From positions 1-41,367 of the IMG/VR virus record IMGVR_UViG_3300023108_000056: a stretch of 41,367 nt of DNA, one strand, 5' to 3'. This document shows positions 2,304 to 38,311 of this stretch, in pieces. The position numbers were made by a program, and so were the translations under genes. Source of the stretch: a virus. Numbering within the stretch: position 1 is the stretch's first letter; every line of letters begins with the position of its first letter. Under the pieces are notes generated by a model. It was given only the letters and a program-made list of their open reading frames with translations, did no database searches and was not told the DNA's origin.

Positions 2304-3074
2304 ATGAATAATATATATAACATTATAAGTGATATAGATGTACCCAATGGACAGACTAAACGTATGGACTGTCCTAACTGTGGTGGGTACAAGACATTCA
2401 CTATTACTAATAACTTGGGTAGTCTTGTGTGGAATTGTTACAAGGCTTCCTGCAATGTAAGCGGCGGGAACCGTGTACACCTAACTGTCGATGACATACG
2501 TGGCAGTATGGGTAACGTGGCTGACTTTGCCGATGAGACATTTGATATGCCTCAGTACATCGTACCACATAGAAACAAGCGTACCGTGTTGGCGTTCTGC
2601 TACAGGTACAAGCTAGACCCCGATGAGTTGGGTGTGTTGTATGATGTGAAGGATGACAGGGTTGTGTTCCCTGTTGTACATGATGGCAAAACAGTGGACG
2701 CTACAGGCCGTGCTATCGGCAAGCGTCTACCTAAATGGAAACGATATGGAAAAAGTGGCTTGCCATACACACATGGTTGTGGTAAAGTCGCAGTTGTTGT
2801 TGAGGACTGTGTGAGTGCAGCCGTGGTTGGTGGCGAATCCTTTGTCGGGGTTGCGATACTTGGCACATCTCTCCAAGAGTCGCATAAAGGGTATCTTGCA
2901 CAGTTCTCAACAGCCGTAATAGCATTAGACCCCGATGCATTACCAAAGACTTTGCAGATGGCAAAGGAACTACGTGGGCATGTAAACGATGTTCGTGTCC
3001 TACGTTTGAAAGATGATTTGAAATATCGTAACCCGACAGATATGGAGAACTTGTATGGAATTATCAATCATTAG
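2304..3074 (+). CDS. DNA primase (zinc finger plus TOPRIM)
   Basis: A protein of 256 residues equivalent to the primase half of T7 gp4. A zinc-binding site is formed by C23, C26, C45 and C50 (CPNC ... CYKASC) and should read the template for primer start sites. The TOPRIM fold carries E167 (VVVEDC) and D209/D211 (LDPD), which bind the catalytic metals. It lacks the helicase domain, which follows as a separate gene overlapping by 20 nt, so the T7-type fusion is split here. AAAGGAG at 2287-2293 precedes the start. It should make RNA primers for the phage polymerase and act with the helicase next door. Confidence 0.8.
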   Translation: MNNIYNIISDIDVPNGQTKRMDCPNCGGYKTFTITNNLGSLVWNCYKASCNVSGGNRVHLTVDDIRGSMGNVADFADETFDMPQYIVPHRNKRTVLAFCYRYKLDPDELGVLYDVKDDRVVFPVVHDGKTVDATGRAIGKRLPKWKRYGKSGLPYTHGCGKVAVVVEDCVSAAVVGGESFVGVAILGTSLQESHKGYLAQFSTAVIALDPDALPKTLQMAKELRGHVNDVRVLRLKDDLKYRNPTDMENLYGIINH

Positions 3075-4281
3075 AAGCCTGATGGATAAGTCGTTCTATG
3101 ATGACCACCGTGGTAGCAAATGCCCACCACGTTTGTTCAGCAAGGACGCACGTAAAATCAAAGAGGCTATCGACACAGCTATGGATAGGTATGAACGCAC
3201 CGTCACACCCGATGAGGTTGAGGCGTTGTTCATGTCAAACAATCCTACGCTGACTACAGCACAGAAGCAGGGCTATGCTTCTATGTTTGCTTCTATCAAG
3301 CGTGAGCAACCAATGGGCAGTGACATAGCACAAGAGGTGCTATCCAAACTATTCCAGCAGGTTGTTGGCGAAGACGTTGCGAATATCGGATTTGATATGG
3401 TCAATGGTGATGCCGCTACACTTGAGAAGCTACGCAATCTGCTTGAGCGTTATGGTGATGACTTCATTCCCAATCTCAATATTGAGTGGGATGACATCAC
3501 TATCGAAACACTCATGGCTAAAGCTGAGTTGGAAGCACGTTGGACATTCAACCTGCCTAGCTTAACACGCAAGGTAGAGGGTGTCAGTGGTGGTCAGCTT
3601 ATCGAAGTGGGTGCTAGACCCAACACAGGTAAGACATCCTTCCACGCCAGCTTGATTGCTGCGCCGGGCGGTTTCGCACATCAGGGTGCCAAGTGCATTA
3701 TCTTATGTAACGAAGAACCTACTCACCGTGTCGGCGCACGTTATCTGACTGCAGCATCTGGTATGTCTGCACGTGAGGTACGTGACAACATGAGCAAAGC
3801 CAAGGCACTCTATGAACCTGTGATGAACAACATCAAGATTAAAGAGGCTGGTGGTCGTGACATGGCATGGGTTGAGTCTGTATGCAAGTCATACAAGCCT
3901 GACGTGTTGGTGCTTGACATGGGTGACAAGTTCTCTGTGCAGGGTTCCTTTGCACGGCAAGACGAAGCACTCAAGGCATGTGCTATCTACGCAAGGCAGA
4001 TTGCCAAATCATATGACTGTGCCGTGTTCTATATGTCTCAGCTATCAGCAGAGGCAGAGGGTAGGTCACAGCTTAATCAGTCAATGATGGAAGGCTCACG
4101 TACAGGTAAGGCTGCTGAAGCTGACCTGATGATACTGATTGGCAAGACCAATGCACAGATAGAAGGTGAGGAAGAGGACAGTCCAATGCGGCATGTCAAT
4201 GTCGTGAAGAACAAGTTGACAGGCTGGCATGGTATGGTTAATGTGGACTTGGATTATCAAACAGCGAGGTACACAGGATGA
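3055..4281 (+). CDS. Replicative DnaB-type helicase
   Basis: A RecA-fold hexameric helicase of 408 residues. The Walker A motif is at 186-195 (GARPNTGKTS) and Walker B ends at D288 (VLVLD). E184, just before Walker A, and the later YMSQLS segment fit the DnaB/gp4 core. The N-terminal 140 residues are helical and may be the primase-interacting or oligomerising part. GGAG at 3044-3047 with 7-nt spacing sets the start. The gene overlaps the primase by 20 nt and the polymerase by 4 nt. It should unwind the phage DNA ahead of the polymerase using nucleotide hydrolysis. Confidence 0.88.
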   Translation: MELSIIRSLMDKSFYDDHRGSKCPPRLFSKDARKIKEAIDTAMDRYERTVTPDEVEALFMSNNPTLTTAQKQGYASMFASIKREQPMGSDIAQEVLSKLFQQVVGEDVANIGFDMVNGDAATLEKLRNLLERYGDDFIPNLNIEWDDITIETLMAKAELEARWTFNLPSLTRKVEGVSGGQLIEVGARPNTGKTSFHASLIAAPGGFAHQGAKCIILCNEEPTHRVGARYLTAASGMSAREVRDNMSKAKALYEPVMNNIKIKEAGGRDMAWVESVCKSYKPDVLVLDMGDKFSVQGSFARQDEALKACAIYARQIAKSYDCAVFYMSQLSAEAEGRSQLNQSMMEGSRTGKAAEADLMILIGKTNAQIEGEEEDSPMRHVNVVKNKLTGWHGMVNVDLDYQTARYTG

Positions 4282-6320
4282 AGCTAACACTTGATGTAGA
4301 GAATACAGTCACCAAGCGTGATGGCAAGATGCACCTTGACCCCTTTGAGCCAGAGAACTCACTGACTATGATTGGTGTGTTGACTGACCAAGGTATGGAG
4401 CAGCACTTCCCATTTGACCACAGTGATGTACCCAATCAGCAGGATTACTACGAGCGTGTGCAGTGGTATCTGGACGAAGCTACTGTACTCATCTGTCACA
4501 ATGCTGCATATGATTTGATGTGGCTATGGGAGTCAGGCTTTAAGTATGATGGCCCTGTGTTTGACACGATGCTGGCTGAGTATGTATTGCAGCGTGGTAT
4601 CAAAGAGCCGTTGTCTCTTGAGGCATGTGCAGAGCGTTACGAACTGGACACCAAGAAGCAGGACACGCTGAAGGAATACTTCAAGCAAGGCTACAGCACA
4701 CGTGACATACCATACAATGAGTTGTGTGAATATCTATCTGCTGACCTTCAGGCTACGCAGCAACTTGCTGACAAGCTGATGTATCGTTTGAATACACCAG
4801 CAGATAGTGGCTTGCGTGGTACAGTAGACCTGACCAATCAGGTAGCTGTGTGCCTAGCACGTATCTATCAGCGTGGGTTCAAGGTTGACTTGTCTGTGTT
4901 GGAGCAAGTGCGTACAGAGTTTGAGCAGGAGAAGCAACAGCTTGAGACTGACCTGCAGGAGCATGTGCGTAAACTGATGGGTGACACACCTATCAACCTG
5001 AACAGCCCAGAGCAATTGTCTTGGGTAATCTACAGCCGTAAGGTCAAGGACAAGATGTATTGGGGCAACGCTATTGACCCATACATGGATGACGCAGACT
5101 TCCGCAGCTTGATTGCTGGCGGTACAGACAAGATGTACAAGACTGTGGCAGAGCAGTGTAAAGACTGTGGTGGTACAGGCTACATCAGAAAGGTGAAGAA
5201 GAATGGCGAACCGTTTGCGAAACCTAATCGGTGCAGTAATTGTGATACTGCTGGTTTTACTCTCACACCTACCAGTGCGCTGGCTGGCCTCAAGTTCAAA
5301 CCCCCTTCACCAAAGTGGGCAAGTGCCAACGGCTTTTCAACCAGCAAGCAAAACCTAGAGGTGCTTGAGTCTGCTGCAAAGCAGCGTGGCATGTCTGACG
5401 CTGTTGACTTTCTGTCTAAGGTACGTAGGTTGAGTGCCGTGGATACATACCTATCTTCCTTTGTTGAAGGCATACAGACCTACACAAAGCAGGATGGTAA
5501 GCTGCATGTGCGTTTGCTACAACATCGTACAGCTACTGGCAGGTTCAGTGGTGCAGACCCTAACATGCAGAACATGCCACGTGGCGGCACGTTTCCTGTG
5601 AAGAAAGTATTTGTGTCACGATTTGCTGGTGGCAAGATTATGGAAGCTGACTTTGCACAGTTGGAGTTTCGTGCTGCTGCCTATCTATCACAAGATGGAG
5701 TTGCTATTGAAGAAGTATCTACTGGATTTGATGTACACGCATACACCGCTAAAGTTATTAGTGATGCTGGTCAGCCTACGAGTAGACAGGATGCGAAAGC
5801 GCATACATTCGCGCCGTTATACGGGGCAACAGGCTATGGACGAACATCCGCTGAGTCAGAATACTACACACACTTCAACCAGAAGTACCAAGGAGTCGCG
5901 TCTTGGCATACCCGACTGGCTAAAGAAGCTATAAGCACACGCAAGATTACTACACCAAGTGGTCGTGAGTTTGCTTTTCCTGATGTGTACCGCAAAGCAA
6001 GTGGTCGCATCTCACACTTTACACAGATAAAGAATTATCCTGTGCAGTCGTTTGCTACAGCAGACATTGTGCCTATCGCATTGTTGCACATTGATATGTT
6101 GCTAAAGGATATGCAATCGTGTATAGTGAATACAGTGCATGACAGTATTGTTGTTGATGTACACCCAGATGAAGAATCACGGGTTATCAGTATCATAGAC
6201 GAAACTAATAAAGCACTGCCTTATCTCATCACCCAACGCTGGGGAGTTGAGTTTAATGTGCCTCTGTTATTAGAGGCAAAAATAGGCCCGAATTGGCTTG
6301 ACACCAAGGACGTAACCTGA
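4278..6320 (+). CDS. polA: Family A DNA polymerase with internal DnaJ-like zinc finger
   Basis: A replicative polymerase of 680 residues. The proofreading domain is intact: Exo I D6/E8 (LDVEN), Exo II N75/D79 (HNAAYD), Exo III Y152/D156 (YLSAD). A DnaJ-like zinc finger follows, C294/C297 (CKDCGGTG) and C319/C322 (CSNCDTAG). The polymerase domain has motif A D458 (ADFAQLEFR), motif B R503-K507-F511-Y515 (RQDAKAHTFAPLYG) and motif C H621-D622. The residue after D622 is Ser rather than the usual Glu (HDS, not HDE). F511 corresponds to E. coli Phe762. The embedded zinc finger is, to my knowledge, characteristic of HMO-2011-type podoviruses. The gene overlaps the helicase by 4 nt. Confidence 0.95.
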   Translation: MKLTLDVENTVTKRDGKMHLDPFEPENSLTMIGVLTDQGMEQHFPFDHSDVPNQQDYYERVQWYLDEATVLICHNAAYDLMWLWESGFKYDGPVFDTMLAEYVLQRGIKEPLSLEACAERYELDTKKQDTLKEYFKQGYSTRDIPYNELCEYLSADLQATQQLADKLMYRLNTPADSGLRGTVDLTNQVAVCLARIYQRGFKVDLSVLEQVRTEFEQEKQQLETDLQEHVRKLMGDTPINLNSPEQLSWVIYSRKVKDKMYWGNAIDPYMDDADFRSLIAGGTDKMYKTVAEQCKDCGGTGYIRKVKKNGEPFAKPNRCSNCDTAGFTLTPTSALAGLKFKPPSPKWASANGFSTSKQNLEVLESAAKQRGMSDAVDFLSKVRRLSAVDTYLSSFVEGIQTYTKQDGKLHVRLLQHRTATGRFSGADPNMQNMPRGGTFPVKKVFVSRFAGGKIMEADFAQLEFRAAAYLSQDGVAIEEVSTGFDVHAYTAKVISDAGQPTSRQDAKAHTFAPLYGATGYGRTSAESEYYTHFNQKYQGVASWHTRLAKEAISTRKITTPSGREFAFPDVYRKASGRISHFTQIKNYPVQSFATADIVPIALLHIDMLLKDMQSCIVNTVHDSIVVDVHPDEESRVISIIDETNKALPYLITQRWGVEFNVPLLLEAKIGPNWLDTKDVT

Positions 6321-6360
6321 TATAACTATGCGTCTAACAACTGGAAAGGAGTTAATAAAC

Positions 6361-7242
6361 ATGAATGATATTACAACAATTGATACCAATAACTACGCTG
6401 AGATGGCAAAGGCTATGGGTATCGCCAATGAAGCTGCATCACAGAAGAAGCAAGGTATGTTCCTTGCACGTCTGCGTATCCAGCATTCCCCAATCTTAGG
6501 TACAGATACCATCAAAGTTAAAGGTGGTACATATAAGCTGGAGATTCCTGATGGGCCTACGTACTACGCAGAGTCTGCTATCGTGCGTCCATTCATGCAA
6601 CGCTTCATGTACAAGAAGTTTGTCATGGCTACAGGTACTGCACCTAATCGTTACGTCAAGACTGTCATGGCTGATAGCCTGAACATGGACTTGAAAGATA
6701 ATGACGGTGGCTTTAACTGTGGTAAGCCTTCAGGCTGGATTGAGGACTTCAAGTCTCTGCCGGATGCTACGAAGGAATTGATTCGCTCTATCAAACGAGT
6801 ACGTGTTGTGCTTGGTACGGTTGAGTTGGTCAATCCAAAGGATGCTGATGGCAAAGAAGCTAGTGTCGATACTGTCCCATTCATTTGGGAAGTAGAGAAC
6901 CGTGACGCATTCAAGACTGTAGGCGGTGTGTTTAACCAGCTTGCTAAGATGAAGCGTCTACCTGTGCAGCATAACGTAACGCTGAATACAGAAGAGCGTA
7001 AGCTGCCTAACGGTAATAGCTTCTACCTACCTATTACGTCTTTAGATGTAACCAATGTTGTGGAACTCACCCAAGATGACCAAGAGAAGTTTGCTGACTT
7101 CATGTCATGGGTACAGAACTATAACGAGTACATCATCAATGCCTACGCAGAAAAGGCTTCGTCAAAACACGATGAGGACTTGGATGAGTTGAACATTGAC
7201 GATGTTGTGGATATGGACTTTGAAGAAGAAGAGGTAGCGTAA
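6361..7242 (+). CDS. Probable single-stranded DNA-binding protein
   Basis: A protein of 293 residues starting at the ATG at 6361, which has AAAGGAG at 6345-6351. An in-frame upstream ATG at 6328 has no ribosome site. The body looks beta-rich, and the last ~35 residues are strongly acidic (DEDLDELNIDD ... DMDFEEEEVA), as in T7 gp2.5 and other phage single-strand-binding proteins, where the tail recruits partners. It lies between the polymerase and a recombination-type nuclease, where an SSB would be expected. I cannot show an OB fold from sequence alone, so the function is inference from tail and context. Its stop overlaps the next start as TAATG. Confidence 0.45.
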   Translation: MNDITTIDTNNYAEMAKAMGIANEAASQKKQGMFLARLRIQHSPILGTDTIKVKGGTYKLEIPDGPTYYAESAIVRPFMQRFMYKKFVMATGTAPNRYVKTVMADSLNMDLKDNDGGFNCGKPSGWIEDFKSLPDATKELIRSIKRVRVVLGTVELVNPKDADGKEASVDTVPFIWEVENRDAFKTVGGVFNQLAKMKRLPVQHNVTLNTEERKLPNGNSFYLPITSLDVTNVVELTQDDQEKFADFMSWVQNYNEYIINAYAEKASSKHDEDLDELNIDDVVDMDFEEEEVA

Positions 7243-13051: not shown

Positions 13052-16000
13052 TTATCTCTTAAATACCTTTGCTATTTTTACTAGAGCATTCAAGTCTTCT
13101 GCACTATTTAAATCAGGCATTCTATCGTTGAGTATTTCAAACTCAAGCATTGCTGCCTTTTGCGTGTCAACAGGTATGTTTCGTGCTGCATATAAAGCAC
13201 GTATAAATGCTGGGTCATCTCCGGCAATACTATTAACTCTACGCATTTTGGATTTTAGTTTCTTGAATTTTTCTTTCATCATAACTCTAATACGTTTGCG
13301 TATTAAGTTCTCTGATTTCCCTTGCTTACGCAGTTTTTCAGCATAGCGCATAAATCCATCAGTTAGTCCGGGCAAGAAGTCATTGACTGTGGCATCCACA
13401 ACTCTGTCTAGTGTGCCTATACCTGTCTTACTATCAAACTCATCCTCTTTAAAACCCATTTGCTTTAAGAACTTTTCTTGTTCTGTGTCGGGTTCCATTA
13501 CATTTAAACCCATAGTCAACTTTAATTCAGGATTTAGTCGCTCTTTTGGTCCCTCTCTTGTAGCGTACTCTCGTGCAGGAACATCTGATTCCTGCTTAAC
13601 ATCATCTACAAGTCCATACTTTTCAAGTGGGTCCATAATAGTATTATAGTAGCCACGAGATTTAAGTGGCTGACTAAATGCCTTACCAAATGAACCAGAG
13701 AATGTCATATCGGGGTCTGTTGAGAAGTCTTTAATTTCTGTTTCTCGTATACCCATCGCACGTTCAGCATCAATAACCATGCTGTATGGCTGCAGAATAC
13801 GTGCAGTAATATCACCAAGCAATCTACCAGCAGCTTTACCAAACTGTGCCTCTGTAGTAATCTTTGATTCGCTTTCTGCTAAGTCAGCAAGGTCATCTAA
13901 CAAATTACCAAGCCCTTGATTGTCTCTGAAGTTTGTTCCAGTAAACAGTTTAACAAACTCTTTACCACCACCACTAGACCTGAACCAATCTGCTGCTGCT
14001 CCTTCGCCACCTTCCAGCCTCTTGTGGCCCCATTTAGCTATGTACATAAGTTGTGGCAGAGGATACTGTGCCGACACATCCACTACTTTATCACTTACTA
14101 TGGTTCTAACTTTGTTATAATCTTCTGGAGAGTTAGGGTCACGAACAGCCATATACGCCATGCCAAGACCTGCTATACCAGCAATGTTTCGTGAGGCAAT
14201 TTCAGCATCACGTGCGCGATTACCAACGCCAAACATTTTTCTAGTAACGGCAATAGGCATACCCATTGTTACTTCACCTACATATTCCATAGATTTAAAC
14301 ATAAAGCGTGGGAATGGAATAATTATAGTGCCGCCGGGAATCTTATTGAGAATACCAAGCGCGGCTTTAAATGGGCCAAAAGAAGGTGACGCTGCGTATG
14401 TCTTTTCAAGGGCTTTATCTGTAGCTTCTGCAAGTAGTTCATGGAAGTTACGAGCATCCTTTGGCTTGATACTAGGCGCATCGTTTACCATATTTCGCAT
14501 TTGACCATTCATAATAGATTCTTCAAGACCAACGCCCCACTCACGTTTGAGTGCGTTATCTAAGTCAGTTAAGAAGTAGGCACGGCGAGTGACAAATTCT
14601 TGAAGTCTGTTTGGCCCGTTAAGAAACTGAACAAAGTCCTCTATAGGTTCAAATATAGCGTCTGACAGTCCACCTTCTCCACGCCCAGTATACTTCTGTA
14701 CCTCGTTTACTTGGTCGTAGAACCTTGTCCATTGCTCTTTATACTCTGGCTGTCCTAATATGTAATCTACAAACTCTGCTTTCTCTGAAGTGAGTTCACG
14801 AGAAGCTATTGCGCCATCTGCGCCAGTACGCCGTATCTTTGCACTATCTCCAAACGTATGTGCATACATTTGAAATGCATCTTTGTATCCATTACCACGT
14901 ATAAAAGGTGTTACATTACGAATACTTCCTTTTAAGTCTCCACGTGCGGCAAGGATAATGGATGTTTCCATTAAATTAGTAAGCCCTTCCATTGGATAAC
15001 GTATTAAGGCAGATTCAAAGTTACGTGCAGCAGTTGCAAAGGCACTGACCATAGCACCACGTATCACGTTTTCGCCACGGCGTATGTTCTTTCTAGCTTT
15101 TCCCAACATATCTACTGCATCATTAAGTTCTTCATCATTTTTTTGTGCAGCAGATTTTTTGCTGGCTTTGCCGCCCATTGCATCGCGCATTTGTCTAAAT
15201 TTCTGCAGACCCCTACCATACTTTGAGCCAGAACCTACGGTCATCATAATGTAGTCGTCCATTGACAAGCCATACTTTTCTAGTATCTGAAGCAAGTCAT
15301 CAGACGCAATTAAATTACCCTTTACAGATTCATCAAATAAAGTTTCTATTACATTTTTACTACCTTTAAAGGCATCAGGATTCATCTCCTTAACTTTAGC
15401 AATGGTAGCAACTACACTATCTAATTTATCTGCATCAAGAACAATGTCAAGCAAACGGGCATCGTCAGGTCCACCCAGTTCATCAAACTGTGATTTACCT
15501 ATTAGTGTTTCATCAATGATACGCTTACCTTCTGACCTAGCCTTTTCATAATCAATACGCAGCTTGCCATCTTTTCCTTTAGAAGATATTTCTACCTTGT
15601 TTATTTCCTCATAATTCTTAATTAAGTCTTCAAATATTTGCGTATTTTCTTTAGCTACTTGTCTTGCTTCTCTGCGCTTTGCTTCAGACACAGATTTTTC
15701 TGCAGCTTTAGCACCAGCTAGATTAAACTTACCATCTGGTAATTTACTATCAATTAGTTCTCTTCCTCTTATTTCTTTTCTAGCTTGCTCTGCCGCTTCT
15801 CGTAATGGTTTTTCTGCAGCCCGTCTTGCTGTACCCCCTGCTATTCCAGTAAGAGAACCAACTGCAGGTACGGCTTCAGCCATTTCAACCATCATACCAA
15901 CATCACCAGCAAACTTACGTCCTGCTGTCTTTGGGTCAAAGGGCAACATTTCTTTACCTGTTACGCCTAACAGTTTATATACTGCACTATCTTCTGTAAT

Positions 16001-16558
16001 ACCTTCATGCACTGCGCGAGTAAGCACTTCACCAAAGTCTGCCGTAGCTTCACCTGCTGCAGTAACGCCTATCGCTAGAGGTTTAACAACATACTTATCT
16101 GTACCCTTGGCTACTACTCTTACTGAGTCTCGCATCCATTCAGGCACATATTCTACAAGAAGTTCTTCGTCAGCAAGAATATCTTTGTCTTTGTTATACA
16201 ATAAGTCTTTAGCTGCTGCTGTTTGATTAAAGTCAAACACTTCTTCTGTTTGGTCATTTACTGTACGGGCTGGTGCGCCAATCTTACGCAGACGAAAAGA
16301 AGAATACTCTTCACCTGTAGGTGCTTGCGGCACTAACTCATAACCCTCTGGCACTTTATTGTTGGCAATAAAAAAGTCCTTCGCTTCCTGCTCGTTTTGA
16401 GGAGAAGGCGAGGACTGTGTTATACTATCTTCAGTTTGCTGCACACGATTAGCAGCAGCTTGTTTCTTTCTTAGGCTGCGAGTAAGCGGCACATCAGCAA
16501 GAGGTTCTGATGTAGTGTCTTCTTCGGGAGCAATGTCCCTTCCCAATACTTTAACCAC
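13052..16558 (-). CDS. Large putative internal virion (ejection) protein
   Basis: A protein of 1168 residues, the largest in the window. It starts with GTG after AAGGA in the 10-nt gap from the upstream gene. It is mostly helical and charged, with a Gly/Ala-rich hydrophobic stretch near 150-235 and another near 750-810 (FPRFMFKSMEYVGE, then IAGIAGLGMAYMAV) that could enter membranes. No lysozyme motif was seen. Position at the end of the virion operon after other coiled-coil proteins, and size like T7 gp16, suggest a core protein injected with the DNA. I cannot identify a family with certainty. Confidence 0.6.
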   Translation of the reverse strand: MVKVLGRDIAPEEDTTSEPLADVPLTRSLRKKQAAANRVQQTEDSITQSSPSPQNEQEAKDFFIANNKVPEGYELVPQAPTGEEYSSFRLRKIGAPARTVNDQTEEVFDFNQTAAAKDLLYNKDKDILADEELLVEYVPEWMRDSVRVVAKGTDKYVVKPLAIGVTAAGEATADFGEVLTRAVHEGITEDSAVYKLLGVTGKEMLPFDPKTAGRKFAGDVGMMVEMAEAVPAVGSLTGIAGGTARRAAEKPLREAAEQARKEIRGRELIDSKLPDGKFNLAGAKAAEKSVSEAKRREARQVAKENTQIFEDLIKNYEEINKVEISSKGKDGKLRIDYEKARSEGKRIIDETLIGKSQFDELGGPDDARLLDIVLDADKLDSVVATIAKVKEMNPDAFKGSKNVIETLFDESVKGNLIASDDLLQILEKYGLSMDDYIMMTVGSGSKYGRGLQKFRQMRDAMGGKASKKSAAQKNDEELNDAVDMLGKARKNIRRGENVIRGAMVSAFATAARNFESALIRYPMEGLTNLMETSIILAARGDLKGSIRNVTPFIRGNGYKDAFQMYAHTFGDSAKIRRTGADGAIASRELTSEKAEFVDYILGQPEYKEQWTRFYDQVNEVQKYTGRGEGGLSDAIFEPIEDFVQFLNGPNRLQEFVTRRAYFLTDLDNALKREWGVGLEESIMNGQMRNMVNDAPSIKPKDARNFHELLAEATDKALEKTYAASPSFGPFKAALGILNKIPGGTIIIPFPRFMFKSMEYVGEVTMGMPIAVTRKMFGVGNRARDAEIASRNIAGIAGLGMAYMAVRDPNSPEDYNKVRTIVSDKVVDVSAQYPLPQLMYIAKWGHKRLEGGEGAAADWFRSSGGGKEFVKLFTGTNFRDNQGLGNLLDDLADLAESESKITTEAQFGKAAGRLLGDITARILQPYSMVIDAERAMGIRETEIKDFSTDPDMTFSGSFGKAFSQPLKSRGYYNTIMDPLEKYGLVDDVKQESDVPAREYATREGPKERLNPELKLTMGLNVMEPDTEQEKFLKQMGFKEDEFDSKTGIGTLDRVVDATVNDFLPGLTDGFMRYAEKLRKQGKSENLIRKRIRVMMKEKFKKLKSKMRRVNSIAGDDPAFIRALYAARNIPVDTQKAAMLEFEILNDRMPDLNSAEDLNALVKIAKVFKR

Positions 16559-32486: not shown

Positions 32487-33560
32487 TTACGCCAAGTGGT
32501 AGATGGCATTAACAAGAGCCTCTGGACGGAGAATCTTGCGACCATACAGATGCATACCACGGACAATATCAGCGAAGCTGTCCGGGTCGCGGTAAGTTTC
32601 AGTCTTATTAATCTGCTCTGCAGTTGCAACAGCAGAAGAATGTCCTGCAACAATCACACCGTAGTTGGTGTTGCTGTTCGCGCCAGCGAATGACGGACCA
32701 GTACCAACTGAAGGCAAGTTGTTAGACTGATACACTTGGAAGCCGTGGATTTGAGTAGAAATCTGACCATTTTGCAGACCAGAACCACCAAAATCAGCGT
32801 TGAACAGACGAGAATCTTCGTCCTTCAATACTTCCATGAACACTGGGTCAAGAACAATCCAGCGACCTTGTGAGTCCACGTTTTGCTGGTCAAGAAGACG
32901 AGCCATACGTGCAATCAAAGTCAATGGGTGTGTATCACCAGCAGCAGGGGTTGCGTCAGTTGCACCACCAGTACGAGGCTGGATAGCAATTGCGTAACCT
33001 GCTGAACCTACTGAACCTGCACCGTCAGAGAAGTCAGATGCGTCCAACTTCATTGATGCAAGCAGTTCGTCAGTTGCAGAACCAACAGCGTTAGTACCGT
33101 TTACAACATCGTTAACGGTATCCGCATTAGAATGCAAAGCAGACTGTTTGTAGCCTGACATATAACCAAGAACGTCTTGGTCAAATTGGTCAGCCAAACG
33201 GTACGCAGCACGGTCACTTGCCAGAGACTGGAAGTTTACGTGGCTGTGTGCCTCTTCAATGTCATCAACCTTAAATGCAAAGTAGTTAGCTTTGTCAATT
33301 GTCAGGCTGAAATCTTCATCGTCAAGGTCTTGCGGCGTGATGGTTGTACCACGGGCGTAAGCCTTAACGGTGATTTCGGGTTCCTTGATAATCTTAACGG
33401 AATCACCCATAGCAGCAATTTCACCAAAGTAGTCAGAGTTGGTGATTGCTTCAGCAACAGCAGACTTGCGGAAAGCAAGTTGCACCTGTTTGCTGTAAAT
33501 TACGGGAGAAAAATTACCGTTAGGAAGATTACCATAACCACTAGCAGTAGTAAATGCCAT
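32487..33560 (-). CDS. Major capsid protein
   Basis: A 357-residue protein with major-capsid features: an N-terminal arm (MAFTTASGYGNLPNGNFSPV), then FRKSAVAEAITNSDYFGEI and GDSVKIIKEPEITVKAY, a helix (DIEEAHSHVNFQSLASDRAA) and the P-domain-like RWIVLDPVFMEVLKDE, ending in a helical C terminus. The length and strand/helix layout fit the HK97-fold/P22 coat group. It follows the scaffold gene, has AGGAG before the ATG, and has its own strong promoter and structured leader. Confidence 0.88.
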   Translation of the reverse strand: MAFTTASGYGNLPNGNFSPVIYSKQVQLAFRKSAVAEAITNSDYFGEIAAMGDSVKIIKEPEITVKAYARGTTITPQDLDDEDFSLTIDKANYFAFKVDDIEEAHSHVNFQSLASDRAAYRLADQFDQDVLGYMSGYKQSALHSNADTVNDVVNGTNAVGSATDELLASMKLDASDFSDGAGSVGSAGYAIAIQPRTGGATDATPAAGDTHPLTLIARMARLLDQQNVDSQGRWIVLDPVFMEVLKDEDSRLFNADFGGSGLQNGQISTQIHGFQVYQSNNLPSVGTGPSFAGANSNTNYGVIVAGHSSAVATAEQINKTETYRDPDSFADIVRGMHLYGRKILRPEALVNAIYHLA

Positions 33561-34965: not shown

Positions 34966-35728
34966 AATAAGCTGAACCTTTCTTAGACATAATGTGTTTT
35001 ATAAGCCATCCTGTCGGGTCTATCTGATACCATTTGTTTGATGTAGTGTAGTTTCTAGGACTATCGTGATGATTTTTATGCCAGCCATCTCCCCAACTGA
35101 TTATGTTTATCCACCATACATTAGATGCTTTGTGATTACCTACAGCATCTTCTGAATGATTTACATAATTAGTCAGTCCTTGTGAAATAAGTGTACAACA
35201 GGCAGGAAGACAGAAACCCATAACTAAACCCGTAAAACCAAACAACACAAACAAACTAATTGAATATATAAAAGCCGGAAGAAAAGTATACTTATGCATA
35301 GTTACAAGAAATTTATCTTTAAGTAAATCCACTACAGTTTTTGGAGAAAAGTTAACACGATACTGCAATGTAACCATTTTCAAAAAACCATCTTGTGCAT
35401 TATGTGGGTCTTCATCTGTGTCAGACAATTTGTGATGCATTCTATGTATACCTGCCCAACCAATAGGAGAGCCAGAACAAGATAGCAAACCAAACATAGT
35501 ACATAATTTACGAAGCCATTCATACTTAAACTCAAAGGACTTATGGCTGTAGTATCTATGAAAAGTCATAATCATGCCAATAATATTCATCAAAATAAAT
35601 ACAACTGCAGCAATACTAGCTTGCGCTGTAGTTATTCCATAAAGGTATAGATAGCTTCCAGATACTAAAAGATTTACGTAGAATATATACTGAACAGTTT
35701 TAATTCTACTTTCAAACGGATTAAACAT
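34958..35728 (-). CDS. Membrane fatty-acid desaturase
   Basis: A 256-residue enzyme starting at the ATG that overlaps the upstream stop (TAATG). All three histidine boxes of the membrane desaturase family are present: H57-RYYS-H62, H95-RM-H98-H99 and H217-KN-H220-H221, with N190-H191 before the third. They bind the di-iron centre that adds a double bond to an acyl chain using O2. Hydrophobic segments near 12-30, 36-55 and 148-186 fit the membrane topology. The GDGWHKNHH ... IDPTGWLIKHI ending matches bacterial delta-9-type enzymes. No redox partner is encoded nearby, so host ferredoxin or cytochrome would be needed. Confidence 0.92.
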   Translation of the reverse strand: MFNPFESRIKTVQYIFYVNLLVSGSYLYLYGITTAQASIAAVVFILMNIIGMIMTFHRYYSHKSFEFKYEWLRKLCTMFGLLSCSGSPIGWAGIHRMHHKLSDTDEDPHNAQDGFLKMVTLQYRVNFSPKTVVDLLKDKFLVTMHKYTFLPAFIYSISLFVLFGFTGLVMGFCLPACCTLISQGLTNYVNHSEDAVGNHKASNVWWINIISWGDGWHKNHHDSPRNYTTSNKWYQIDPTGWLIKHIMSKKGSAYYG

Positions 35729-38112
35729 TACTTGTTTACCTTTGTTAATACCCATCCCATAAATCTTAATGTAGGCCAAACAAATGCTTGCGTTACTTTA
35801 TCGTAAACTTTTTGTTTTGCAGAAAGTGTGTTAGTATATCTTGCTGTGTAATACGAAGTAGCAAGATTAGATAGTTTAGCTGTCCATCCAGTAGCTTTTA
35901 CCTTTGATGCTAGTTTAGGGCCAAACCAATCATATGCTTTCATTAGATATGGGTCATTTCTACGCAGTAGAATACCATATTTTTTAAGAGGAGTCAAGTC
36001 TGCATATGAAATTATTCCATTGGCATAAGATGCGGTACAAATATAAGTGCCGCTGGAACCGCTATCAGAGCCACTGTCAGAGCCACTGTCTTGTCCTTCA
36101 TTCATTCCTGTGCCTGTACCTTGTGCATCCATACCAGAAGATGTTTGTGACGGTTGACTTCCGTCATCAGCAATGTTACCAAACTCATCGGCATCATCTG
36201 ACCTTGAGGCTGCATCTGCAGCTGCAAATGCCCTATCAACATCTGCTTGTGTAGGTGTGCCAAATACAGCGTCAGCTCTTTCAACATTTCCTTTAGCCAT
36301 AGCTGCTTTTGCTTTAGGGTCTTGGACAGCGATAGCTTTTGCTTTTGCTGTTTGTCTAGCAATTTGTGCATTAATAGCATTTAATTGCGCACGTGCTTTA
36401 GCAGTCATAACGGGATTTTGGTCTCTATCTCTTACAGGCTCGTTTGTTAAAGCTGACCTAACAGTACCCTTGCTTTGAACTTCATTTGCCTGTGCCTGTA
36501 AACCTGCAACTTGTGCGCCATAAGCGGCGGCGGCTTTAGCTACAGCAGCAGGGTCATTAATTTGTGAAGAAGTGTATCCTAAATCTTGCATATGCGATAT
36601 AGCACTTTGTGTAATAGCAGCTTGATGTTCAGGGCTTGCTATAGCGGCTTCAATAGCTGCAGCTACATCTTGGCCTTTTTTAGCAGCTTCGTGTGCGGCT
36701 GAAATAACATTACCAAGCATAGTAGCTTGTTCACTAAAATTAAGTTGGCTATTACTATGTAATCCCATAGCAGATAAAGCCGCTTGTTGTCCTAAATTAC
36801 CAGCAACAGCAACATCATTAGCGGTAAATCCTGTAAGTCCTGCAGCTTCCATTACTGCACCATAGGGAGATAAACTACCTAATTGTGCTTTTGCTTGTTC
36901 CAATGTTGCTGCTCTTAGTGCCTCATTTGATGTACCAAAAGTGGCATGACCACCAAATGCATTTGAATGAACAGATTCATCGGACTTTGTAAAGCCTAAA
37001 GAAGACATTGCTTTAGCCGTAGATACACCAGTTGATACATCGTCAAAACCCGGACCATCACCACCGCCACTATCGTCTTGTTGTACTACCGTTGTTGGTG
37101 CGGTTGAGGTATCATCAGGCGGTGGGGCAGGTTGTTCAGAACCCGGCGCACGACACACGAAACCCTCTGGAATAGGATATAGTGGTTTTCCATCTATGTG
37201 TGGAATTGTTCTTGTCTGACCTGCATCATTTGTACAAGTGTAGCTTTCATAAGTTCCGGGGTAACGGTCCCCAACAGTTTCAGCAAACGTAGGTATGTTA
37301 GTAGTCTGTGTTGCCGTAGTAAACTGTGGACCTGTAAATTGGACGGGCTGATAGTACGGAGCAGCACCGCCATAAGGCACATAACCTGTTTGACCGCCTG
37401 AAGGAATTAAATATCCCGAAATACCAGAACCAGAAATATTATATGTACCAGTGTTTGGATTAACTTGAGTAGGACTTCCGTATGGCATCTGCGGCTGTTG
37501 AGGTTGCATTGGATTTACAAAACCACCAACTTGAAAATTTAATTCTCCTTGTTCATTTTCAGTTTCTAAATCATCCATGTTAAAAGGAACACCATCAGGA
37601 ATAGTAGCTTCATCCGCATTACCCATTTGTCCCATTGCTTCCATTCTTTGTAGACCAGCTTTAGCTTCATCTCTTAAAGCCATCATTTTATCTAGTCCAT
37701 GATAACGAACCACATCTGCTGGAAAAACAAACTCACCTTCACTCAGTTGAGCAGGAATATCATCACGTACTTCTTCACGTAATGAGCCGGGTGGTACTTC
37801 GTTACCTGACTCTTCGTCAACCATACCACCTTCGTCCATAAGGCCACCCTCATTGAAGCCTTGGCTTTTCATCATTTTATATAGCTTAATAAATTTTTGT
37901 TGTTTTTCTTCTGGCATATCTTTTATTTCGCCAGACATTAACATATCAGTTAACTTATCAAATTGGTCTTTTCTAGCTGCTTTTTTATCTGCTGCACTAG
38001 ACTGTAAATCTTGCATAGCCGCATCTTTAGCGGAAGACGTATCTCCACCCTCATTAAAGCCACGTTCTACTGGCTCAAAAAGTTCCATTTGTTCTGCCGT
38101 GCGTTTAGCCAT
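35728..38112 (-). CDS. Long low-complexity virion-operon protein
   Basis: A 794-residue protein from the ATG at 38112. Residues 85-140 contain GFNEGG, then VPPGSLREEVRDDIPAQLSE and GEFVFPADVVRYHG, a block I recall from uncharacterised proteins in many marine phages. Then comes a Pro/Gly/Gln/Tyr-rich region (~190-350) with a cysteine pair, a long Ala/Gln helical region (~380-640), an Asp/Ser/Gly tract and a helical C terminus (LTPLKKYGILLRRNDPYLMK). It sits between portal and scaffold, so a head or ejection role is likely but unproved. Confidence 0.6.
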   Translation of the reverse strand: MAKRTAEQMELFEPVERGFNEGGDTSSAKDAAMQDLQSSAADKKAARKDQFDKLTDMLMSGEIKDMPEEKQQKFIKLYKMMKSQGFNEGGLMDEGGMVDEESGNEVPPGSLREEVRDDIPAQLSEGEFVFPADVVRYHGLDKMMALRDEAKAGLQRMEAMGQMGNADEATIPDGVPFNMDDLETENEQGELNFQVGGFVNPMQPQQPQMPYGSPTQVNPNTGTYNISGSGISGYLIPSGGQTGYVPYGGAAPYYQPVQFTGPQFTTATQTTNIPTFAETVGDRYPGTYESYTCTNDAGQTRTIPHIDGKPLYPIPEGFVCRAPGSEQPAPPPDDTSTAPTTVVQQDDSGGGDGPGFDDVSTGVSTAKAMSSLGFTKSDESVHSNAFGGHATFGTSNEALRAATLEQAKAQLGSLSPYGAVMEAAGLTGFTANDVAVAGNLGQQAALSAMGLHSNSQLNFSEQATMLGNVISAAHEAAKKGQDVAAAIEAAIASPEHQAAITQSAISHMQDLGYTSSQINDPAAVAKAAAAYGAQVAGLQAQANEVQSKGTVRSALTNEPVRDRDQNPVMTAKARAQLNAINAQIARQTAKAKAIAVQDPKAKAAMAKGNVERADAVFGTPTQADVDRAFAAADAASRSDDADEFGNIADDGSQPSQTSSGMDAQGTGTGMNEGQDSGSDSGSDSGSSGTYICTASYANGIISYADLTPLKKYGILLRRNDPYLMKAYDWFGPKLASKVKATGWTAKLSNLATSYYTARYTNTLSAKQKVYDKVTQAFVWPTLRFMGWVLTKVNK

Positions 38113-38311
38113 TGACTGCATCCCTTAATGTTTTAATGCTACGCAACACAGCAATCGCTCCTTGCGCACGATGCATTAAAACTGTGTTATCGCCTTGCTC
38201 TAATGTACGATGTTGCTGGTCAATCAGCACATCTAAATATTTATTGAAGTTGTCCCACTGGCGGCTGTTGCTGACTATTGGCTTCAGCTTGCTGAGTATT
38301 TCCTTGTCCAT
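38105..38311 (-). CDS. Small conserved-type head-region protein
   Basis: A helical protein of 68 residues from the ATG at 38311 (GTG at 38317 is an alternative), with AAGGA upstream. The pattern SRQWDNFNKYLDVLIDQQHR ... RAQGAIAVLRSIKTLRD is one I associate with small genes after the portal in marine phages. It overlaps the portal 3' end by 71 nt in another frame and the next gene by 8 nt. Function unknown. A portal-associated or assembly role is inferred from position. Confidence 0.62.
   Translation of the reverse strand: MDKEILSKLKPIVSNSRQWDNFNKYLDVLIDQQHRTLEQGDNTVLMHRAQGAIAVLRSIKTLRDAVNG

Follow-up and report, generated by a model that had tools for sequence, protein, structure and literature searches.

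Insertions in the thumb of the T7 and human (HsDNAP) DNA polymerases are described in published passages as interacting with processivity factors. Passages on simulations report that the T7 domain works as a DNA clamp by means of basic residues, and others model the thumb insertions of plant organellar polymerases as touching duplex DNA. Phages of the HMO-2011 type are called dominant and widespread in the ocean in the abstract of PMC9038755, and in a passage of PMC8528129 a partial DnaJ domain serves as a criterion for metagenomic genomes. On this published record, the partial DnaJ domain is already a hallmark of the HMO-2011-type group. The present analysis deals with the DNA polymerase gene of a complete virus record of 41,367 bases (IMG/VR record IMGVR_UViG_3300023108_000056, the whole of which is called the window below), and with the cysteine finger that forms this domain in its product. 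The finger is not new; in a structure model, it sits inside the tip of the polymerase thumb, between segments that match helices H1 and H2 of the Klenow enzyme, and this placement is a useful addition to published knowledge.

Identity of the polymerase and place of its finger

The 680-residue product (P0001) is the family A polymerase with which a marine phage of the HMO-2011 type replicates its DNA. Pfam families PF00476 (DNA polymerase A, E 3.5e-51) and PF01612 (3'-5' exonuclease, E 6.4e-8) match it, and the family A hallmarks, that is, the motif A aspartate, the R/K...F/Y...Y pattern of motif B and the His-Asp of motif C, are all present, motif A containing D458 and E463. The nearest database relative is the polymerase of Puniceispirillum phage HMO-2011, with 79.1% identity over the whole length; identity is 67% to CRP-345 and CRP-1, 43% to HTVC033P and 40% to CRP-3. 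In a T7-rooted FastTree phylogeny of 116 palm sequences, in which some isolates are doubled under name and locus, all 52 finger-bearing tips fall into a single clade that contains no other tips (support 0.88), and the assignment to the HMO-2011 type follows from this clade and from the 79.1% identity. The four cysteines, a His-Asp-Ser (HDS) motif C and Phe at E. coli position 762 are common to the window enzyme and to the polymerases of HMO-2011, roseophages CRP-1, CRP-2 and CRP-3, and pelagiphage HTVC033P; the gene order integrase-primase-helicase-polymerase is also alike in HMO-2011 and the window.

Cysteines C294, C297, C319 and C322 were found at the positions given in a preliminary description of this DNA, as were HDS at 621-623 and Phe511, the equivalent of E. 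coli position 762. Three scans, whose search patterns contained neither the cysteines nor motif C and from each of which, as capped scans, the best 80 matches were taken, gave 69 (the near set), 80 and 70 distinct palm-bearing sequences. The CxxC...CxxC finger is present in 69/69, 80/80 and 70/70, that is, in 219/219 of the distinct relatives listed. An alignment of 115 sequences was built from the window enzyme and 114 of 124 chosen relatives (37-86% identical), drawn from these scans and from a fourth scan with TVHDS in its pattern; rows had to carry the finger, a readable HDS and a length above 640, and to be non-redundant at 88%. The four cysteines and H621-D622-S623 are invariant in this alignment, which is partly forced by the choice of rows, and so are F511, G310 and G326, none of which was a selection criterion; the remaining five cysteines of the protein are kept in only 31, 76, 14, 30 and 56 of the 115 sequences. 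By the three scans, the finger is no chance feature of the window enzyme. Across 239 distinct homologous open reading frames (ORFs), CXXCXGXG is exact at the first knuckle in 235 and at the second in 167; the second knuckle of the window, CSNCDTAG, is one Gly short of the motif, and the exact form is likewise missing there in 72 of the 239. As for the exonuclease domain, D6, E8, D79, Y152 and D156 are presumably its catalytic residues, E8, Y152 and D156 being invariant in the alignment and D6 and D79 conserved in at least 90% of it.

The full-length AlphaFold2 model, which was built on the 115-sequence alignment and contains neither DNA nor zinc, has a mean predicted local distance difference test (pLDDT) value of 91.8 and a predicted template modelling (pTM) score of 0.85. 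In the 50 rows listed, this model matches polymerases (Bst, Klenow and Taq) with Z 31.1-33.2; 539 residues align at 3.1 A with Bacillus polymerase I (4ez9, Z 33.2), and Klenow (1kfd) is matched with Z 32.6. Along the modelled chain, the exonuclease is followed by helices 205-234 and 244-252, small helices 259-265 and 272-282, strand 287-293, the knuckles, strand 327-335, and helices 357-369 and 373-402; residues 238-255 align in sequence with the Klenow segment FNLSSTKQL. The names H, H1, H2 and I are applied to these helices as we take them to be used for Klenow. Because of this helix order and the alignment to Klenow, the finger is assigned to the tip of the thumb, with H1 before it and H2 after it. 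The preliminary description had located it between the exonuclease and polymerase domains, as the published descriptions do in the passages concerned; this wording tracks the Pfam boundary, and the model corrects it by putting the finger within the polymerase thumb. A finger that acts as a linker between the two domains is rejected by the thumb position in the model and by the sequence anchors.

The T7 gene 5 polymerase and the window enzyme are both replicative phage family A enzymes with a large thumb-tip insertion, compared here by sequence anchors, as the 50 structure rows listed hold no chain of the T7 enzyme. The thioredoxin-binding insertion of T7, whose limits we take to be 258-334, precedes the N-x-x-S anchor (FNPSS at 334), whereas that of the window enzyme follows it; from the anchor positions, therefore, the insertions of T7 and of the HMO-2011 type lie on opposite sides of H1. 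The window insertion does not fall between helices H and H1, as the T7 type does, but comes after H1. For the T7 domain, residues 268 to 330 are named in a passage of PMC5984650. The T7 enzyme has HDE, Tyr526 and no CxxC pair in the aligned region, in contrast to HDS, Phe511 and the CxxC pair of the window enzyme, and its span from N-x-x-S to T-G-R is 93 residues as against 181. This span is 131-136 residues in split enzymes of the QDWS535, MEP402, VP41s3 and ICP2 types and 171-220 in three phiKMV-like enzymes; the finger-less relatives fill the H1-H2 site differently, with a median of about 50 residues in 37 MEP402-like and about 139 in 30 phiKMV-like sequences. A span of 155 for CRP-3 and the insert row of locus L175, which does carry the finger, are regular-expression errors.

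Polymerases split into an exonuclease-thumb gene and a palm-fingers gene were observed in Alcaligenes QDWS535, Methylophilales MEP402, Vibrio VP41s3 and ICP2_2013_A_Haiti (L089-L092), and in MEP402 and VP41s3 a small gene lies between the two halves. With regard to the literature, no paper joining HMO-2011, polymerase and 'thumb' was found in a search of non-subscription literature, to which the first HMO-2011 report does not belong, and the terms 'thumb' and 'processivity' are both absent from PMC9038755. The viral structure library yielded matches to other phage polymerases and nothing bearing on the finger.

The known domain that the finger resembles is the Cys-rich domain of DnaJ. PF00684 (DnaJ central domain) matches residues 287-328 with E 6.9e-4 and 20.3 bits, below the gathering score of 32.7; at E up to 1, it is matched by 115/115 thumb-tip segments (best 8.7e-8), 86 of which also match anti-TRAP. 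The thumb-tip profile of the 115 sequences matches the E. coli DnaJ domain (1exk, E 0.0021) over motifs 2 and 3, and its next match is antitermination protein Q (7ubj, E 0.099); by sequence, the finger segment on its own had no PDB match better than E 0.15. When modelled separately, the thumb-tip segment has a pLDDT of 91.7 and a pTM of 0.63, and its best structural neighbours (VIA), all weak, are DnaJA2 (Z 4.5), BSD2 (3.8), anti-TRAP (3.7), UvrA (3.7), lambda Q with DNA (3.6) and DnaJ (3.5). DnaJ/Hsp40 (1exk, DnaJA2) has the CXXCXGXG knuckles and the profile match, and is weakly the best structural neighbour; its Cys-rich domain, however, has four CXXCXGXG repeats and two zinc sites, whereas the window finger has two CxxC motifs only and lies within a polymerase. 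A Pfam search of the whole 680-residue protein gave no J domain at any E up to 1, and an HPD tripeptide at 629-631 lies in the palm, just past motif C. The lambda Q antiterminator, likewise a phage protein that acts on nucleic acid, has a DnaJ-like pair of knuckles and is matched weakly in sequence (E 0.1) and structure (7ubl, Z 3.6), but it is a transcription factor. These comparisons suggest that the finger is half of a DnaJ Cys-rich domain with one putative zinc site, and no chaperone.

Motif C and position 762

HDS was found in every readable sequence of the three finger scans (69/69; 75/75, with 5 unreadable; 64/64, with 6 unreadable). It is also found in finger-less relatives: in a scan whose patterns lacked motif C, 53/53 distinct MEP402-like sequences have HDS. 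The finger-less phiKMV-like sequences (L331-L408) have HDA in 55, HDC in 15 and HDS in 1 of 71 readable cases (3 unreadable). Counted over all distinct sequences, the third residue is Ser in 216 finger-bearing ones, and Ser in 103, Ala in 56, Cys in 15 and Glu in 1 of those scored as finger-less; two loci so scored (L306 and L327) are finger-type genes cut by the contig end. From 60 records listed across a ranking, 12 other phage polymerases covering motif C were picked for varied taxonomy; the 11 that a motif search could read comprise HDS in 3, HDA in 5, HDE in 2 and HDD in 1. The three with HDS are Lactobacillus Bacchae, Exiguobacterium 132 and Bacillus Adastra, two of them recorded under Herelleviridae Spounavirinae and one under Herelleviridae. 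Six distant genome-contig matches (L499-L504) have HDE in 3 and HDS in 3. Two scans with TVHDS in their patterns, the fourth scan (a biased set) and one of genome contigs, were not relied on for HDS, which is partly present in them by construction. As a separate observation, phiKMV-like polymerases mostly have HDA or HDC, so that the third carboxylate is lacking there too.

The polymerase of Thermus phage Tt72 is, according to a passage of PMC9324360, an active phage enzyme that, like the window enzyme, has a natural Ser at the position of E. coli E883. In that passage, replacement of this residue (S616A) leaves 76% of wild-type activity, the parent D78A has 89%, and D384A and D615A have 4%. 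No finger is mentioned for Tt72 in these passages, in which zinc was not searched for. Because of the scans, the other-phage sample and the S616A data, HDS is to be regarded as common and functional, and as neither unusual nor diagnostic. The preliminary description had stated that the family has HDE, which does not apply to the majority of the phage family A enzymes covered (HDE in 2/11 of the other-phage sample). It had also called motif C altered, and had named HDS in many unrelated family A polymerases as a finding that would speak against its reading; HDS was indeed found in the MEP402-like sequences, the Herelleviridae and Tt72. HDS as a mark of the lineage or a sign of impaired catalysis is ruled out by the finger-less HDS relatives, the SPO1-like phages and Tt72.

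At position 762, every readable sequence of six sets has Phe, except for one with His in the TVHDS-pattern set. In a passage of Nasko et al. 2018 (PMC6302109), the contigs most similar to HMO-2011 are listed as Phe762, and Phe762 is therefore not new; PMC9069017 contains no mention of HMO, motif C, HDE, zinc, DnaJ or Puniceispirillum. The suggestion that finger, HDS and Phe762 in combination mark the lineage thus holds in part: the finger is present in all distinct HMO-2011-type relatives listed, which form a monophyletic clade, and HDS and Phe762 are not diagnostic. In the palm tree, the sister of the finger clade is the QDWS535/MEP402 group, with a support of 0.998 for their joint node. Deeper nodes are weak, with 0.19 for the node uniting all HDS tips, inside which HDA and HDC tips also fall. 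Since the sister group has HDS without the finger, these sequences are most simply explained if HDS preceded the finger.

The downstream protein and its neighbourhood

The polymerase gene is followed by a gene for a 304-residue protein with the C-terminus LDELNIDDVVDMDFEEEEVA, which has a charge of -10 in 20 residues. A homologue is present in 215/215 finger loci with at least 1000 nucleotides downstream and in 2/185 loci scored as finger-less; both of the latter are finger-type genes cut by the contig end, which leaves 0/183. The homologues lie directly behind the polymerase in 195 cases and elsewhere in 33 (the 20 listed being 224-823 nucleotides further on). None was found in 4 finger loci with 533-733 nucleotides left, and 35 more loci had fewer than 500. 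The charge of the tail is -8 to -11 in 64/64 distinct sequences of the near set, and -5 or below in 40/60 and 37/56 sequences of the two farther scan sets, with a maximum of +1. Two homologues listed end in DDEVPF and EEEVPF, which we take to resemble the tails of bacterial single-stranded DNA-binding proteins (SSBs). A 60-member profile of the family matched no PDB chain up to E 10, no PHROG family was matched in more than 5/60 members and no Pfam family in more than 6/60, and the comparison with T7 gp2.5 gave an hhalign probability of 0.14%, the T7 side being one sequence given twice. The protein is a candidate phage SSB.

HMO-2011 has the gene order integrase, primase, helicase, polymerase, unknown protein, SIO1-like gp17, endonuclease, ribonucleotide reductase (RNR) and MazG, and counterparts matched in the window are the integrase, helicase, polymerase, a Cas4-like exonuclease, endonuclease, RNR and MazG. 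The major head protein family phrog_267 was matched at 32487-33560. The integrase is a tyrosine integrase at 1400-2278, upstream of the replication module, and the phage may be temperate. Two large reverse-strand ORFs, of 1168 amino acids (13052-16558) and 797 amino acids (35728-38121), have no PHROG match. Table 1 gives the features of the replication region.

Table 1. Features of the polymerase gene and its neighbours, in window coordinates.
Feature	Position	Strand	Basis
Primase	2304..3074	+	Position, annotation of HMO-2011 counterpart; weak Zn-ribbon and Toprim signals
DnaB-type replicative helicase, 4-base overlap with polymerase start	3055..4281	+	Pfam and PHROG matches
HMO-2011-type family A DNA polymerase, 680 amino acids (P0001)	4278..6320	+	Single open frame; Pfam and database comparison
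3'-5' exonuclease domain, residues 1-171, D6/E8/D79/Y152/D156 present	4278..4790	+	Pfam, alignment
Long thumb helix, residues 205-234 (Klenow helix H by position)	4890..4979	+	Model secondary structure
Thumb-tip helix H1 (within NLNSPEQL), residues 244-252	5007..5033	+	Alignment to Klenow FNLSSTKQL, model
Thumb-tip insertion of about 90 residues, H1-H2, residues about 253-345	5034..5312	+	Model, sequence anchors
Residues 288-320, the 33-residue stretch with the highest net positive charge in the protein	5139..5237	+	Mean net charge +6.8 in 115 sequences, rank 1 of 648
Putative zinc-finger knuckles CKDC(GGTG) and CSNC(DTAG), residues 294-326, flanked by strands 287-293 and 327-335	5157..5255	+	Sequence, alignment, model, profiles
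Post-insertion thumb helices, H2 (357-369) and I (373-402)	5346..5483	+	Model
Motif A DFAQLEFR, residues 458-465	5649..5672	+	Sequence, alignment
Motif B R503..K507..F511..Y515, residue 511 equal to E. coli 762	5784..5825	+	Sequence, alignment
Motif C His-Asp-Ser, residues 621-623	6138..6146	+	Sequence, scans, alignment
304-amino-acid protein with acidic C-terminal tail, candidate partner (possibly SSB)	6328..7242	+	No family match; conserved linkage

Candidate roles of the finger

The proposal that a zinc-stapled basic hairpin of the thumb, in the position given by the model, clamps the product DNA, with HDS as a tolerated and older state, is given an even chance of being right. The finger would be a single basic beta hairpin stapled by zinc and equivalent to half of a DnaJ Cys-rich domain, which the model puts at the tip of the thumb, after H1 and before H2. 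It would run along the newly made duplex and hold the phosphate backbone, and would thereby raise affinity and processivity without thioredoxin, as a functional counterpart, at a neighbouring site, of the T7 thioredoxin-binding domain. The acidic tail of the 304-residue neighbour may also dock on the basic face of the finger. Catalysis would rely on the aspartates of motifs A and C, D458 and D622, the third carboxylate being dispensable. The presumed zinc ligands are conserved in the alignment, and tolerance of HDS, observed in Tt72, is extended to the window enzyme by analogy.

The charge of the finger is consistent with such a clamp. K259, K288 and K307 are K/R in 115/115 sequences and K305 in 112/115, and no insert column is acidic at 95% or more, as against four K/R columns at that level. 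With insert limits set by sequence anchors, and with counts that cover only sequences in which the anchors were found, the median charge of finger-bearing inserts is +8 (70 distinct sequences, near set), +14 (61), +11.5 (62) and +11 (13), and that of finger-less inserts is +1 in phiKMV-like (n=30, -4 to +16) and +5 in MEP402-like sequences (n=37, -6 to +7). This evidence supports a grip on DNA and is not decisive, and several points weigh against it. Some finger-less phiKMV-like inserts, at up to +16, are equally basic. Fully conserved K/R columns are not enriched in the insert (4/93 vs 11/587, Fisher p 0.14) or in residues 287-335 (3/49 vs 12/631, p 0.09). A surface of this charge might hold the acidic tail of a protein just as it might hold DNA, and the model is free of DNA and zinc. 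Structure matches are weak, the best Foldseek E for the isolated finger being 0.21 and none reaching 0.001, and the literature search found no experiment on this enzyme or its finger-bearing relatives.

In T7, thumb loops bind the acidic tails of gp2.5 and gp4, and the finger might likewise be mainly a docking site for replisome proteins, its basic face binding the tail of the 304-residue candidate SSB, the helicase or both. The strict linkage of that protein to finger loci (215/215 with sufficient sequence, vs 2/185 that are cut finger-type genes) and the strongly acidic tails of the near set (64/64) are in keeping with this, as is the contact of T7 SSB with T7 polymerase, which a published passage ascribes to the thioredoxin-binding domain of the polymerase and to the C-terminal tail of the SSB. 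Docking as the main role is nevertheless rather unlikely: linkage inside one clade may reflect common descent alone, distant members keep the finger though their tails are weaker, the identification as an SSB is unproven, since neither a fold nor a family was matched and T7 gp2.5 proved dissimilar, and the tail of the window helicase is not acidic (-1). A finger that merely staples a long thumb loop into shape, without a partner, would fit the presence of other insertions at the H1-H2 site of finger-less relatives, which would then use other loops for the same end; the strong conservation of K305, K307 and the K-x-G turn, together with the charge peak, makes such a role distinctly improbable. 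Recruitment of the host chaperones DnaK and DnaJ to the phage replisome is very improbable, since the J domain is missing and only two of the four CXXCXGXG motifs are present, and since similar knuckles are part of proteins that have other functions (anti-TRAP, BSD2, UvrA, and lambda Q with DNA). It would rely on the profile match to DnaJ motifs 2-3 (1exk) and on the role of DnaJ in lambda replication mentioned in a passage of PMC9038755.

An extension of the clamp proposal, entertained as a doubtful possibility, is that the finger is a processivity device built into the enzyme and independent of thioredoxin, which an unrecognised neighbour SSB toggles or loads with its acidic tail, and that the H1-H2 site has been filled by several unrelated clamps in this branch.

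In published passages, the 'DnaJ' element is quoted as a hallmark of the group, without a structural place or a tested role. Placement in the thumb turns the matter of what the finger binds into a biochemical question: either it grips DNA and adds processivity, or an acidic tail docks on it. The HDS of motif C is no longer a puzzle, as this and other phage lineages function without the third carboxylate.

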